A DNA stretch of 64,000 bases, taken from Natronomonas pharaonis DSM 2160 (GTDB taxonomy: Archaea > Halobacteriota > Halobacteria > Halobacteriales > Haloarculaceae). The stretch is taken from contig NC_007426.1 in NCBI RefSeq assembly GCF_000026045.1, forward strand, positions 2,046,001 through 2,110,000, in the 5' to 3' direction. The translations under genes and the position numbers were made by a program. The notes beneath the pieces are model-generated. The model saw nothing but the letters and a program-made list of their open reading frames with translations. It had not been told where the DNA came from and did not search any database. Each line of letters opens with the position of its first letter. Positions within the stretch are counted from its first letter, which is position 1. Positions 11,493 to 59,517 of the stretch are shown one piece after another.

Positions 11493-12164
11493 CTACCATA
11501 TTTCATTCATATTAGGCATCGTTGCCACCGCCTCACCGAGCTGCCGAACAGCTGTCGGGGCTGGCGAGGGACGCTCCGGGAGCGTCTCGACAGGACAGTC
11601 ACACATCCGTTCGAGTTCGTCCGGGTTCGTCCGTTCGGCGACCGATGCTGCCGTATAGCGGTTCAAGGCGACGCCAGCAACCGGTACCGACCGGCGTCGG
11701 AGCGTCTCGACGGTCAGTGCCGTGTGGTTAAGCGTGCCAAGTCCAGAGCGGGCGACGACGAGCGCTGGGACATCGAGCGCCGCCACGAGGTCGACGATTT
11801 CTTGGTCGCCGTCGGTCGCCAGCGGCACCCGGAGGCCACCGGCCCCTTCGACAACGCCAATATCCGCTTCAGCAAGCGCTGTCCGCGTCGCTGCAACCAC
11901 GTCATCGAAGGCGATGGTCGAATCCGCCCGACGGGCAGCAACAGCGGGAGCCAACGGCTTCTCGAACGTTCGCAATCGGGTGGCCGCCGCCGCTTCGCCA
12001 CAGATATTTCGGACGTAGTCAGCGTCGTCGTCCTCCGGATAGCCGGTTTGGACCGGCTTGACCGCGCGGGCCTTGCGACCCTGCTCGCGGAGCCATGCAA
12101 CCAGCCCAGCGGTCACAACCGTCTTGCCGACGCCCGTGTCGGTACCGACGACAGCGATAGTCAC
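11493..12164 (-). CDS. bioD: Dethiobiotin synthetase
   Basis: BioD closes the ureido ring of DAPA with CO2 and ATP to give dethiobiotin. The 223-residue protein starts MTIAVVGTDTGVGKT, a P-loop with the typical GT-x-T-x-x-GKT form, then VKPVQTGYPEDDDADY (substrate-binding Lys/Thr) and VVEGAGGLRVPL (the EGAGG signature). It is the last gene of the minus-strand biotin operon. Its GTG/ATG start region overlaps the bioF stop by 4 bases, indicating translational coupling. It is followed by about 190 bases of AT-rich sequence with T-runs suited to termination. Confidence 0.94.
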   Translation of the reverse strand: MTIAVVGTDTGVGKTVVTAGLVAWLREQGRKARAVKPVQTGYPEDDDADYVRNICGEAAAATRLRTFEKPLAPAVAARRADSTIAFDDVVAATRTALAEADIGVVEGAGGLRVPLATDGDQEIVDLVAALDVPALVVARSGLGTLNHTALTVETLRRRSVPVAGVALNRYTAASVAERTNPDELERMCDCPVETLPERPSPAPTAVRQLGEAVATMPNMNEIW

Positions 12165-13360
12165 AACAGCCCGACCTCCGTTCCGGCCACTTCAAAGGCG
12201 GCCAGACACCGGTCGATGTCGGCTGCAGTATGCGTTGCTTGAGGAGCCAATCTGATGCGGCTCGTTCCCTCCGGGACGGTCGGTGGGCGGATGGCCGGGG
12301 CGACGATGCCGGCATCCTCGAGCCGGTCGGCGAGAGCAAGGGCGTCTCCCCGGTCGCCGACGACGACCGGAAGGATATGTGTGTCGCCCCAGACCTCGTA
12401 GCCGAGAGCCTCCAACCCGGACCGGAGTCGGTCGACGTTCGACCACAGTGGCTTGCGCTGCTGTGGTGCCAGCGCAAGACCTCGTTCGGCAGCAGCCGCA
12501 GCGGGCGGGGCCAGCCCCGTCGAGAAGACGAACGAGCGGGCGGCGTTGAGCAGGTACTCCACCAGGGGCTCATCCCCGGCGACGAAACCGCCCTGTGCGC
12601 CCAGCGCCTTCGAGAGCGTACCGAGCTGTACGTCGACGCGGTCTTCGAGCCCCCGCTGGCCGACGATGCCACCGTCATAAACGCCGGTGGCGTGGGCCTC
12701 ATCGACCATCACCCACGCGCCGTACGTATCGGCAGCATCGCAGATATCCGCGAGCGGAGCCACGTCGCCGTCCATCGAGAAGACCGAATCAGTGACGACC
12801 AACCACGACTCGTCGGCAGCAGCCTCGTCGGCACAGTCGCGCATACATGCTTCGAGCGCCGCGGCATCACAGTGGTCGTACACCTCGATGTCGGCCCCCG
12901 AGAGCCGCGCGCCGTCGATGATGCTAGCGTGGTTGAGCTCGTCGGAGAAGATTCGGTCGGGGGACAGTGCCGTCAGCGTGCCGACGTTCGCCGCATACCC
13001 CGACGAAAAGACGAGCGCCCGTTCGGCCGATTTCTCCGCGGCGAGCCGACGCTCCAGCGAGCGATGAGCCGGCGTATCGCCGACCACGAGCCGTGAGGCG
13101 CCCGCGCCGGTACCAACCGCACTGGCTGTGTCTGCGGCCGCAGCAGCGAGCCGGTCGTCACCCGCGAGCCCGAGATAGTTATTGGCGGCGAAGACCAGCT
13201 TTTCGTCTCCGAACGCCGGCGGCTCGCCTTTTGGGTCGACCGCAGTACGGGCGCTGGCACCGACGCTGTCGACCGGCGCGAGGTCGCGCCGGAGGCCTGT
13301 GTCTTCCCGGTCGGCGAGGCGGGCTTCGAGGTCGAACCCGCGGGTGTCGTATCGCTGCAT
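12161..13360 (-). CDS. bioF: 8-amino-7-oxononanoate synthase (BioF family)
   Basis: This PLP enzyme condenses pimeloyl thioester with alanine to KAPA. Family blocks in the 399 residues are AANNYLGLAGDDR, GTGAGASRLVVGDTPAHRSLE, FSSGYAANVGTL, NHASIIDGARLSG, TDSVFSMDGDVAPL, VDEAHATGVYD and the PLP-lysine segment GTLSKALGAQGG (Lys251). The C terminus (IRPPTVPEGTSRIRLA) is typical. It overlaps bioD by 4 bases and lies 3 bases after the BioU-like gene. No pimeloyl-forming genes (bioC, bioH, bioW, bioI) are visible in the window, so the pimeloyl source is unknown. Confidence 0.93.
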   Translation of the reverse strand: MQRYDTRGFDLEARLADREDTGLRRDLAPVDSVGASARTAVDPKGEPPAFGDEKLVFAANNYLGLAGDDRLAAAAADTASAVGTGAGASRLVVGDTPAHRSLERRLAAEKSAERALVFSSGYAANVGTLTALSPDRIFSDELNHASIIDGARLSGADIEVYDHCDAAALEACMRDCADEAAADESWLVVTDSVFSMDGDVAPLADICDAADTYGAWVMVDEAHATGVYDGGIVGQRGLEDRVDVQLGTLSKALGAQGGFVAGDEPLVEYLLNAARSFVFSTGLAPPAAAAAERGLALAPQQRKPLWSNVDRLRSGLEALGYEVWGDTHILPVVVGDRGDALALADRLEDAGIVAPAIRPPTVPEGTSRIRLAPQATHTAADIDRCLAAFEVAGTEVGLL

Positions 13361-13363
13361 CGG

Positions 13364-14392
13364 TCAGAAGCCGGGCATCAAGTCGGTGGGGCCGAAGACG
13401 CCATACTCGCCGGCACGGTTCCGCCGAACGCCGGCCTTCAGATAACCTAGCGCCGGCCCGTTGACATTGGCTTCCATGCTGGTGTCGTCGTCGAGCTGGA
13501 AGGTGTTGGTTGCCCGCTCGCCGTCGAAGGTCCGGCCGGTGACTTCGACGGTTGTCGTCGTCGGCTTCTCGTCGGAGCGGACATCAAGGATACCACCGAC
13601 GGTGACGTCTTCGGCATCGCAGATGCCGGCGCGTTCGAGGAGTACGTCATCAGCGTGCTCCATGTCGTTGAACTCAATGCGGCCGTCGTGTTCGTCGACA
13701 ATCGCTTCGATTTCCTCGTCGGAGAGTTCGCGTGCGGTTTCGATGTCGTAGCCGTCGAGGTGGGCGATGTCCTCGCGGACGGTCCCGCGGTTGTCCTCGT
13801 AGCCGGATTTGAGCCCGACACCCCACCAAATGTCGACGGATTCGACCTCGACGAACGATTGGGCGGCAAGCGCCGCCGCACCGGTCAGGAAGCCGGGGGT
13901 CGCGCCCGCCCCACAGACGAACGTGATACCGGCGTCTTCGAAACTGTCGACCCGGTCGTCGAGCATACCGATGACACGAGAGCGCTTGAGCACATCGACG
14001 AGGACACCTTCGTAATCCGCGTCCGCGAACCGGTCAGCAACACGAGGGATGAAGTCGTGTTCGAGGTTCGGCAGCGCGATGAGCACTGCATCGATGGCGT
14101 CGGACTCGGCGATGATGTCGTCTATCGGTGTTTCAGTCGGCTCCGCCTGCGTCGAGGCGGCGACACCGCGCATCTCGCCGGACTGCTTGACCGCCACCGC
14201 GCCGCCGTCGCTGGCGATGTTGCCCTCCGTCGCGGCCAGAAGTTCGTCGACATCGAGGCCGTCGTGGTCGATTGCGACGCCGTGACGGTCACACGCCGCC
14301 ACGGGGGTCAGCGCCGTCTTCTCCGTCGCGTATTCGAGCGTTCGTCGACCGATGCCACCAGTACCGAGCACTGCGAAGTTGATGTCGTCCAT
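13364..14392 (-). CDS. bioU: Probable BioU-type DAPA synthase (dehydrogenase-like protein in place of BioA)
   Basis: The 342-residue protein has an N-terminal Rossmann motif FAVLGTGGIGRR (GxGxxG at 10-15) and resembles the saccharopine/aspartate-semialdehyde dehydrogenase group. Other marks are LIALPNLEHDFIPRVADRF, VLVDVLKRSRVIGML, FVCGAGATPGFLTGAA and an acidic C-terminal domain. It sits between bioB and bioF, exactly where the KAPA-to-DAPA step (normally the aminotransferase BioA) is needed, and no bioA is present. Cyanobacterial BioU, an NAD(P)-dependent dehydrogenase-like enzyme that converts KAPA to DAPA using its own lysine, is the best candidate family. Lys136 is conspicuous, but I cannot align the catalytic residue by eye. 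Spacing is 2-3 bases to each neighbour. Confidence 0.72.
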   Translation of the reverse strand: MDDINFAVLGTGGIGRRTLEYATEKTALTPVAACDRHGVAIDHDGLDVDELLAATEGNIASDGGAVAVKQSGEMRGVAASTQAEPTETPIDDIIAESDAIDAVLIALPNLEHDFIPRVADRFADADYEGVLVDVLKRSRVIGMLDDRVDSFEDAGITFVCGAGATPGFLTGAAALAAQSFVEVESVDIWWGVGLKSGYEDNRGTVREDIAHLDGYDIETARELSDEEIEAIVDEHDGRIEFNDMEHADDVLLERAGICDAEDVTVGGILDVRSDEKPTTTTVEVTGRTFDGERATNTFQLDDDTSMEANVNGPALGYLKAGVRRNRAGEYGVFGPTDLMPGF

Positions 14393-14394
14393 TG

Positions 14395-15507
14395 TTAGTC
14401 GTCAGTTTCCGTTGTTGCGTTCGTTCGGTTCGCGTTCGATGCCGTCTCGGCTGCCGGGGACCGGTGTCGAGCCTTGACCGACTCGGGGTCGAACGTGTTG
14501 GCCTCGCGGTTGGGTTCCAGCCCCGCCCGCTCGATAATCTCGATGTCGTCGGCGGGCGTCTGGCCGTCCGTCGTGAGGTAGTCGCCGGTGAGGAGACCGT
14601 CGGCACCGGCCTCGAAGGGTAGATGCTGTTCGTCCGGGTCAAGGTTGACCTCACGGCCGCCTGTCAGCCGCACGCGGGCCTCCGGATGGAGGAACCGGTA
14701 GACGGCGATGGTCTTGATAAGCTCCGTCCGCGAAATCGTCGCCGCCTCGCGGTCGCCGATGGGCGTTCCCTCGACCGGGTTGAGGATGTTGACCGGCAGC
14801 GACGAGACGCCGACCTCCTGCAGTTCGATGGCGGCGTCGACGCGGTCGGCCGGCGTCTCGCCCATACCGAGGATGACGCCGGCACAGAGGTCCATCCCCG
14901 CGGCCTTCGCTCGGTGGAGGGTCTTTAGCCGGTCGTCGAAGCTGTGGGTGTTGACAATCTCCGAGAAATATCGTCGGGAGGTCTCGATATTGTGATTGTA
15001 GTGGTTGAGTCCCTCCGCGGCGAGTATCTCGGCTTCCTCCTCGGTCAAGACACCGAGGGAGGCGTCGACCTCGACGTCCGTCTCGTCGCGTACCAACCGG
15101 ATGGCGCGGATGACATCGTCCCACTCGTCGGGCCGTTTTTCCTTGGAGACGCCCTTTTCGGCGACAACGATGCCGAACCGCTGGGCACCGTCGGCTTCCG
15201 CTCGCTTCGCGGCATCGAGGATGTCCTCGGGGTCGAGGAACCCATAGGTGTCGATGCCGGTGTCGAAATGGGCGGACTGCGCGCAGAACCCGCAGTCCTC
15301 GGCGCAGTTGCCCGCCTTCGCGTTGACGATGCTGCAGGCGTCGACCGTCCCGTCCGAAAAGTGCCGGCGGAGCAGGTCGGCCCCCGCAGCCAGTTCGTCG
15401 ACGGGCTGGGCGAGCAGCGCGAGCCCATCGGTCCGGTCGAGTCGCTCGCCGTCGAGCGCCCGCTGGACCGCGTCATCTACCGTCTCGTTTCCGGTCTCGT
15501 AAACCAC
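14395..15507 (-). CDS. bioB: Biotin synthase
   Basis: BioB is a radical-SAM enzyme that inserts sulfur into dethiobiotin. The SAM cluster ligands are Cys68-x3-Cys72-x2-Cys75 (GNCAEDCGFCAQS). Other blocks are RFGIVVAEKGVS, GLNHYNHNIETSRRYFSEIVNTHSFDDR, CAGVILGMGET, LPVNILNPVEGTP and RLTGGREV (the Arg ligand of the [2Fe-2S] cluster). The C terminus adds an Asn/Thr-rich tail. The GTG at 15507 gives MVYETGNE and falls about 27 bases after the TATA box. A GTG at 15516 would add three residues. It is the first gene of the operon bioB-bioU-bioF-bioD, with the operator on its start. Confidence 0.94.
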   Translation of the reverse strand: MVYETGNETVDDAVQRALDGERLDRTDGLALLAQPVDELAAGADLLRRHFSDGTVDACSIVNAKAGNCAEDCGFCAQSAHFDTGIDTYGFLDPEDILDAAKRAEADGAQRFGIVVAEKGVSKEKRPDEWDDVIRAIRLVRDETDVEVDASLGVLTEEEAEILAAEGLNHYNHNIETSRRYFSEIVNTHSFDDRLKTLHRAKAAGMDLCAGVILGMGETPADRVDAAIELQEVGVSSLPVNILNPVEGTPIGDREAATISRTELIKTIAVYRFLHPEARVRLTGGREVNLDPDEQHLPFEAGADGLLTGDYLTTDGQTPADDIEIIERAGLEPNREANTFDPESVKARHRSPAAETASNANRTNATTETDD

Positions 15508-15531
15508 GACTAGCACCTCAGTTTACGAGAC
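15494..15531. promoter_or_regulatory. Probable BirA operator on the bioB start
   Basis: GTCTCGTAAAC at 15494-15504 and GTTTACGAGAC at 15521-15531 form a perfect 11-bp inverted repeat with a 16-base spacer. The known biotin operator bound by the BirA repressor-ligase has half-sites TTGTAAACC/GGTTTACAA with a similar spacer in bacteria and archaea. The core GTAAAC/GTTTAC is identical. The repeat abuts the TATA box and covers the predicted transcription start and both candidate start codons, ideal for repression. Confidence 0.75.
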
Positions 15532-15538
15532 TATAAAT
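15532..15538 (-). promoter_or_regulatory. TATA box of the biotin operon
   Basis: ATTTATA read on the minus strand is centred about 27 bases from the GTG at 15507 and directly touches one arm of the inverted repeat. A leaderless or near-leaderless bioB transcript is expected. Confidence 0.6.
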
Positions 15539-58254: not shown

Positions 58255-59517
58255 CTACAACAGCACGACGAGTCCGGTCACAGCCCCTGCACCGACCAAG
58301 AGAACGGCGCTCCAGACAACAACCCCCCGGGCGAACTCCCGGTTCGGCGAGAGTGCCGACAGCCCGGCCTTCACCGCGATACTCGCCGCGGAGGCGAGCA
58401 GGATGGCGACGACGGCCTGGTCGGCCGTGATCTGGCCGTTCGAATAGAGGATGACCGCCGACGCCGTCGCGCCGGCGCTGGAGACAAGCCCCGAAATCGC
58501 CGCGGCGGCGTAGAGCCCCTCGGTGCCGAAAAGCGCCTCTGCGAAGCCACCGGCCAACAGCACGACGAGAAAGAGCCCCCCAACACCGAGGGCATAGCGG
58601 AGCGTGAAGGGGGCACCGAGGTCCATCTCGACGCTTTCCGACCACTCTGCGGTGAATGCTGCAACCACAATCGCTCCGACTACGACTGCACCGAGCGGGA
58701 TAACCGCTTCAACGAGCACGCCCGCGCCGATTGTGAAGACGACAGCGATAGCGAGGTTCCGCATCGCCATCGCGGCGTTCGAGAGGACGACGGCGGCGAT
58801 ACCGTACCGGGAGGCATCGGGCTGCTGGCTGACGTGGTCGAGCATCGCGCCGACAACGCCCGTCGAGGAGGCGAATCCACCGAAAAAGCCGGTGACGGCG
58901 ATGCCGCGGCCGCCGTAGAGTTGGACGATAGCGTAGTTGGCGATACCGATGCCCGCAACGAAGACGACCATGAGCCAGACGACCCGTGGTTCGACAGCGA
59001 CGGCAGCATCGCCGACAGCGATGGTCCGTTCCTCCGGCGGCAAGAGCGGATAGATAACGAACGCGAGGATAGCGAACTCGGTGCTGGACCGGACTTCCTG
59101 TCGCGACAGCGACCCCGCAACGGCGTGGAGTTCCTGTTTCAATACGAGCAACAGCGAGGAGACCACAGTGACAGTAACGCCTTCGAGAACGTGGCCGGAG
59201 GCGACAAGCGACCCGACGCCGTAGGCGACAAGCAACGACGCCGAAGTGGTAAGCGAGAGCGTCTCCGTCTGGCCGACCAGTCCGCGGATGCCGAGGATGA
59301 CGCCCACAACCACGACAAAGGCCGCACCGACGAACAGCAAGAGCGGCTCGCCGAGTATCGTAAACACCGCTGCGATGAGGCTGACAAGCGCGAACGTCCG
59401 GATGCCGGCGACCTTATCCGACCACTCCCGTTCGAGGCCGAGAAAGAGCCCGAGAAGCGCCGCTAAAACGAGCGCCGCGACGTTGTCGTCCAGCATCGCC
59501 GGGCCGAGTTCGCTCAT
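58255..59517 (-). CDS. MgtC/SapB-DUF4010 membrane protein
   Basis: From MSELGPAMLDDNVAALVLAAL the protein has about 420 residues and 12-13 hydrophobic helices. The N-terminal quarter is an MgtC-like domain (LLGLFLGLEREWSDKVAGIRTFALVSL with the conserved G-x-E-R-E). The remainder is DUF4010: ELHAVAGSLSRQEVRSSTEFAILAFVIYPLLP, GFFGGFASSTGVVGAMLDHV, and AAAISGLVSSAGATASAVILY. A role in Mg2+ homeostasis or small-molecule transport has been suggested for the family. The TATA-like GTTTATCC near 59545 is 26 bases before ATG 59517, so the upstream ATG at 59538 is disfavoured. Confidence 0.87.
   Translation of the reverse strand: MSELGPAMLDDNVAALVLAALLGLFLGLEREWSDKVAGIRTFALVSLIAAVFTILGEPLLLFVGAAFVVVVGVILGIRGLVGQTETLSLTTSASLLVAYGVGSLVASGHVLEGVTVTVVSSLLLVLKQELHAVAGSLSRQEVRSSTEFAILAFVIYPLLPPEERTIAVGDAAVAVEPRVVWLMVVFVAGIGIANYAIVQLYGGRGIAVTGFFGGFASSTGVVGAMLDHVSQQPDASRYGIAAVVLSNAAMAMRNLAIAVVFTIGAGVLVEAVIPLGAVVVGAIVVAAFTAEWSESVEMDLGAPFTLRYALGVGGLFLVVLLAGGFAEALFGTEGLYAAAAISGLVSSAGATASAVILYSNGQITADQAVVAILLASAASIAVKAGLSALSPNREFARGVVVWSAVLLVGAGAVTGLVVLL

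Follow-up and report, generated by a model that had tools for sequence, protein, structure and literature searches.

The stretch analysed here, referred to as the window, comprises 64,000 nucleotides of the genome of Natronomonas pharaonis DSM 2160 (contig NC_007426.1, positions 2,046,001 to 2,110,000), and the element in question is an inverted repeat lying across the start of bioB, the gene for biotin synthase. This gene heads a tightly packed operon on the - strand, bioB-bioU-bioF-bioD (Table 1). The arms of the repeat at 15494-15504 (GTCTCGTAAAC) and 15521-15531 (GTTTACGAGAC) are exact reverse complements with 16 bases between them. A TATA-like box, TTTATA at 15537-15532, stands directly beside the upstream arm, and the likely GTG start codon (15507-15505) falls between the two arms. 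The perfect 11-bp repeat, its contact with the TATA box and its position over the translation start had been described in an earlier note on this DNA, and all are borne out. The same note had likened the repeat to a BirA operator, an interpretation that is now supported: the repeat very probably serves as operator for the bifunctional (group II) BirA of the host, a repressor that responds to biotin. This reading is carried by the conservation of the operator, by its co-occurrence with the helix-turn-helix (HTH) domain of BirA and by a regulon of two sites, as established by sequence comparison.

The palindrome alone was rejected as evidence. Chance sequences generated with a Markov-1 model at the length of the window hold similar repeats, with 0-9 inverted repeats of at least 11 bp (spacers 4-30) in each, and the significance of the site therefore rests on its motif and its conservation. 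The 64-kb window contains a single copy of the core, GTAAAC-N10..30-GTTTAC, against an expectation of 0.01. In the 2.75-Mb genome the hexamers GTAAAC and GTTTAC are found 14-18 bases apart at one place, and the reversed control pattern gives 0. With the operator matrix the bioB site scores 34.4, while the runner-up in the window at equal spacing scores 2.0. Written as TCGTAAACC-N14-aGTTTACGA, the operator fits the published BirA consensus in both its GTAAAC/GTTTAC core and its spacing (PMC545781). Among relatives, conservation extends over approximately 9 bp per arm (TCGTNAACC), with variation in the outermost bases. A further operator-like sequence in the window (59357-59388; matrix score 17.7), with a spacer two bases shorter, is probably due to chance.

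The second member of the predicted regulon is bioY. A symmetric model built from the bioB operators of relatives, with the best 150 of ~760 first-look candidates scored, gave two matches only in the host genome at an expect value (E) of 10 or below, at bioB and bioY, and a broader operator model returned the same two sites. The host bioY site reads GTAAAC-N16-GTTGAC and ends 16 bases 5′ of the bioY ATG, and an ATP-binding, bioM-like gene follows bioY. In other haloarchaea, the strict-pattern matches outside bioB all lie 5′ of bioY, with the exception of one bioB remnant. Across 38 bioY loci, a CCGAAG...TT.AT element is present within the operator spacer, approximately 26-28 nt 5′ of the start codon. 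The earlier note had proposed a search of the genome for the repeat near bioY, birA or carboxylase genes. It is present before the host bioY and at every related intact bioB; no operator was found upstream of birA in the nine HTH-birA genes sampled, host included, and the carboxylase genes of the window do not appear to be targets, as no second site in the window exceeds a matrix score of 2.0 at operator spacing.

Additional sites were noted in single genomes. Genome G128 has a third operator (L243; G128:C1:1350336-1350368) 5′ of a separate, stand-alone bioU, which provides independent support for bioU in haloarchaeal biotin metabolism. In G171, a weak site (L246; G171:C1:386683-386714; E 0.45) lies 5′ of a gene for biotin carboxylase, which birA follows on that strand, and regulation of carboxylase and birA is possible in this one genome. 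Sites in G029 and G041 (E approximately 0.5) were discarded as looking like chance, one being inside an acyl-carrier-protein-like gene and the other having no adjacent biotin gene. A conserved haloarchaeal gene (MDEKTxELRDIF...) is divergent from the neighbouring bioY in many genomes (L110:856-1530 on the - strand, L089, L092, L097, L098, L103).

The birA gene, absent from the window as the earlier note had stated, sits approximately 23 kb past its right end (~C1:2133185-2133772 and beyond). The host BirA (L001) is a single protein with an N-terminal PF08279 domain (HTH_11; 47.1 bits), followed by PF03099 (BPL) and PF02237 (BPL_C), and it matches TIGR00121 with 193 bits; the winged helix that the note had singled out for checking is thus present. 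The protein aligns with S. aureus BirA over query residues 15-299 and with E. coli BirA over residues 10-290, and these alignments span from within the HTH domain to near the C terminus.

A survey of 391 Halobacteria genomes for the HTH domain found few without a convincing TIGR00122 match, and in these the ligase is mostly absent too. A BirA ligase that lacks the HTH domain was found in five genomes of two genera (G123, G173, G345; G317, G359), the proteins being L201, L202, L203, L107 and L108. All five genomes carry bioY and none has an operator 5′ of it (0/5), compared with 70/72 for the sampled genomes with an HTH-bearing BirA. With genomes as the units, a Fisher test worked out by hand yields ~1e-6, which is optimistic given their relatedness. 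In all bootstrap trees of the ligase the five HTH-less proteins fall into two groups, which makes it likely that the domain was lost twice, probably independently. The combination that the earlier note had named as evidence against a BirA operator, a BirA without a DNA-binding domain and an absent repeat, is confined to other genera, where the two go together, and this pairing strengthens the case. In G316, BirA is missing, bioY is truncated and the operator is eroded.

It could be argued that the palindrome is bound by an HTH repressor unrelated to BirA. Haloarchaea possess many winged-helix regulators, and each of their genomes offers many weak HTH candidates. Such a repressor is nonetheless very unlikely, given that the published BirA consensus has the same motif and spacing and that the bioY operator is absent in the two genera whose BirA has kept the ligase and lost the HTH domain.

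As a separate observation, neither a BirA ligase nor bioY was found in G050, G079, G089, G139, G144, G268, G318, G001, G007, G002, G069, G177, G257 and G272. These haloarchaea include 7/7 sampled genomes of genus g5, with bioB absent in those screened, and they may live without protein-bound biotin.

Conservation of a BirA operator at bioB was assessed in 81 loci, comprising 80 from named haloarchaea and that of the window. In nearly all of them GTNAAC and GTTTAC are exactly 16 bases apart, with a TATA-like box immediately 5′ of the first half-site and the start codon directly 5′ of the second. As the loci had been picked by similarity, and partly by their N-terminal peptide, conservation was rechecked in 194 independently drawn Halobacteria genomes. 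An intact bioB is present in 86 of the 194; the strict operator pattern is found at bioB in 80 of these and a variant at the same place, detected by the matrix, in the remaining six, so that 86/86 have the operator.

The second half-site shares sequence with codons 2-4 of bioB, and in almost every haloarchaeal BioB the right arm is translated as V-Y-E-T in the reading frame of the gene. This raises the alternative that the arm merely reflects the BioB N-terminus (VYETGN) and that the palindrome is coincidental. The codon for Val-2, however, is GTT in 81/81 loci, whereas in the rest of these bioB genes GTT makes up 5.7% of 2237 Val codons, which indicates that the DNA site is constrained and not the peptide. 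Among the 81 loci, the Thr codon is unconstrained at its third base. Where residue 3 is other than Tyr, it changes to His, Asp or Asn (GTTCAC, GTTGAC, GTTAAC); these are half-site variants of the GTNAAC type, and the position that varies is also the degenerate one of the left arm, which is conserved though non-coding. The identical type of palindrome also stands 5′ of the unrelated gene bioY. Codon use and the bioY sites already contradict the peptide explanation, which is scarcely credible, and on this evidence the DNA site rather than the peptide is what is conserved at bioB. In haloarchaea the BirA operator is likely to form part of the bioB reading frame and to determine the initial residues of the protein, V-[YDNH]-[EKS], a repressor site having fixed an N-terminus and a rare codon class-wide, with a second geometry for this repressor at bioY, where the operator brackets the TATA box. 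A function of the repeat in RNA, where folding of such a sequence at the beginning of a gene could give a bioB hairpin or attenuator, can practically be dismissed. The left arm is situated 3′ of the TATA-like box and 5′ of the probable transcript start and would not be part of a leaderless RNA, and the arms are mismatched in many relatives (GTCAAC vs GTTTAC), as is known for BirA sites.

The relatives of the host bioB are all haloarchaeal, and TT[AT]T at -29..-26 is conserved in the 81 bioB loci. Translation of bioB most likely begins at the GTG and not at 15516, the start of the longest open reading frame, and the distance from TATA box to start codon suggests that the transcript is probably leaderless. 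Broken bioB genes with the operator still at their start were seen at L188 (G096:C34), L189 (G159:C72) and L187 (G122:C10). The bioU-like gene occupies the place held by bioA in many bacteria; judged from a match that is strong and far below the cut-off, it is a divergent haloarchaeal BioU.

Table 1. Features of the bioB operon and its predicted operator in the window.
Feature	Coordinates	Strand	Details
Predicted BirA operator	15494..15531	.	two 11-bp arms and 16-bp spacer
Promoter-proximal half-site	15521..15531	-	GTCTCGTAAAC on the - strand; between TATA-like box and start codon
Second half-site	15494..15504	-	bioB coding sequence, codons 2-5 (GTT TAC GAG AC. = V-Y-E-T)
TATA-like box TTTATA	15532..15537	-	centre ~27 nt upstream of start codon; from sequence
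Likeliest bioB start codon, GTG	15505..15507	-	relatives: GTG 72/81, ATG 9/81 at the same position
bioB, biotin synthase	14395..15507	-	TIGR00433, 345.8 bits
bioU-like, (S)-8-amino-7-oxononanoate synthase family	13364..14392	-	NF047886, 326.8 bits; cut-off 600 not reached
bioF, 8-amino-7-oxononanoate synthase family	12161..13360	-	TIGR00858, 390 bits; cut-off 426 not reached
bioD, dethiobiotin synthase	11493..12164	-	last operon gene; TIGR00347, 129 bits, over cut-off

In the proposed mechanism, BirA would accumulate biotinoyl-5′-AMP once the acceptor proteins are fully biotinylated. The loaded protein would then dimerise, with one winged helix contacting each half-site. Bound at bioB immediately 3′ of the TATA-like box, such a dimer would span the transcription and translation start and deny RNA polymerase access to the bioB-bioU-bioF-bioD operon. 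The bioY operator brackets the TATA box, and a dimer there would block TBP/TFB. These two blocking modes, of the polymerase start at bioB and of TBP/TFB at bioY, are suggested by the position of the operators, and the corepressor, the binding and the repression by the host BirA are modelled on bacterial BirA.

A number of points weigh against this assignment. The binding of BirA at bioB and bioY and its effect on their expression are predictions from sequence. The host BirA reaches 56.7 bits with TIGR00122 (birA_repr_reg), below the cut-off of 70, and the same model stays below its cut-off in every haloarchaeon searched. Two of the 70 operator-bearing genomes with an HTH-bearing BirA have a 15-base spacer, and HTH-bearing G116 and G135 have no clear bioY operator. 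The loss of the HTH domain amounts to at most two independent events, with a single origin not strictly excluded. In the genome scans with the operator models, the best 150 of ~760 first-look candidates were scored, and weaker sites could be missed.

A BirA operator at these loci would extend a bacterial-type vitamin repressor circuit across the haloarchaea, in which a single regulator serves archaeal TATA promoters through two different geometries (bioB, bioY). The N-terminus of BioB offers a clear example of a regulatory DNA site constraining a protein sequence. The two genera missing repressor domain and operator together represent a natural experiment on regulon loss.

Rodionov et al. reportedly described BirA regulons by comparative genomics in 2002, under a title that covers Archaea. 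A literature search returned no paper on haloarchaeal BirA regulation, nor on BioU together with Haloferax. For Natrialba magadii, bioYMN has been reported in a haloarchaeal genome paper, and the passages located in that paper give no description of the site (PMC3403918). The published BirA signal is TTGTAAACC-[N14/15]-GGTTTACAA; in delta-proteobacteria it also takes the variant forms GTCAAC/GTTGAC (PMC545781). Ligases of group I and group II are distinguished, and binding by BirA requires biotin and ATP (PMC4016012). The haloarchaeal system resembles the E. coli type in its inverted GTAAAC/GTTTAC half-sites at BirA spacing 5′ of biotin genes and in its bifunctional ligase with an N-terminal winged helix. 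It differs in the outer half-site bases, which are TC/GA and not TT/AA, in its archaeal core promoter (TATA), and in a bioB operator that lies over the start codon, with half of the operator coding. The consensus with GTCAAC variants and the targeting of biotin biosynthesis operons are shared with the BirA regulons from comparative genomics (PMC545781), whereas the haloarchaea differ in having bioU among the targets and a bioB that is probably leaderless. In B. subtilis, as is predicted for the haloarchaea, one group II biotin protein ligase governs separate biotin loci (bioWAFDBI, yuiG and yhfUTS); its operator sequence and spacing, however, are described as unlike those of E. coli, and its sites lie in 5′ untranslated regions (PMC4016012). 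Set beside these systems, the haloarchaeal one constitutes a well-supported new case within the known BirA regulon.
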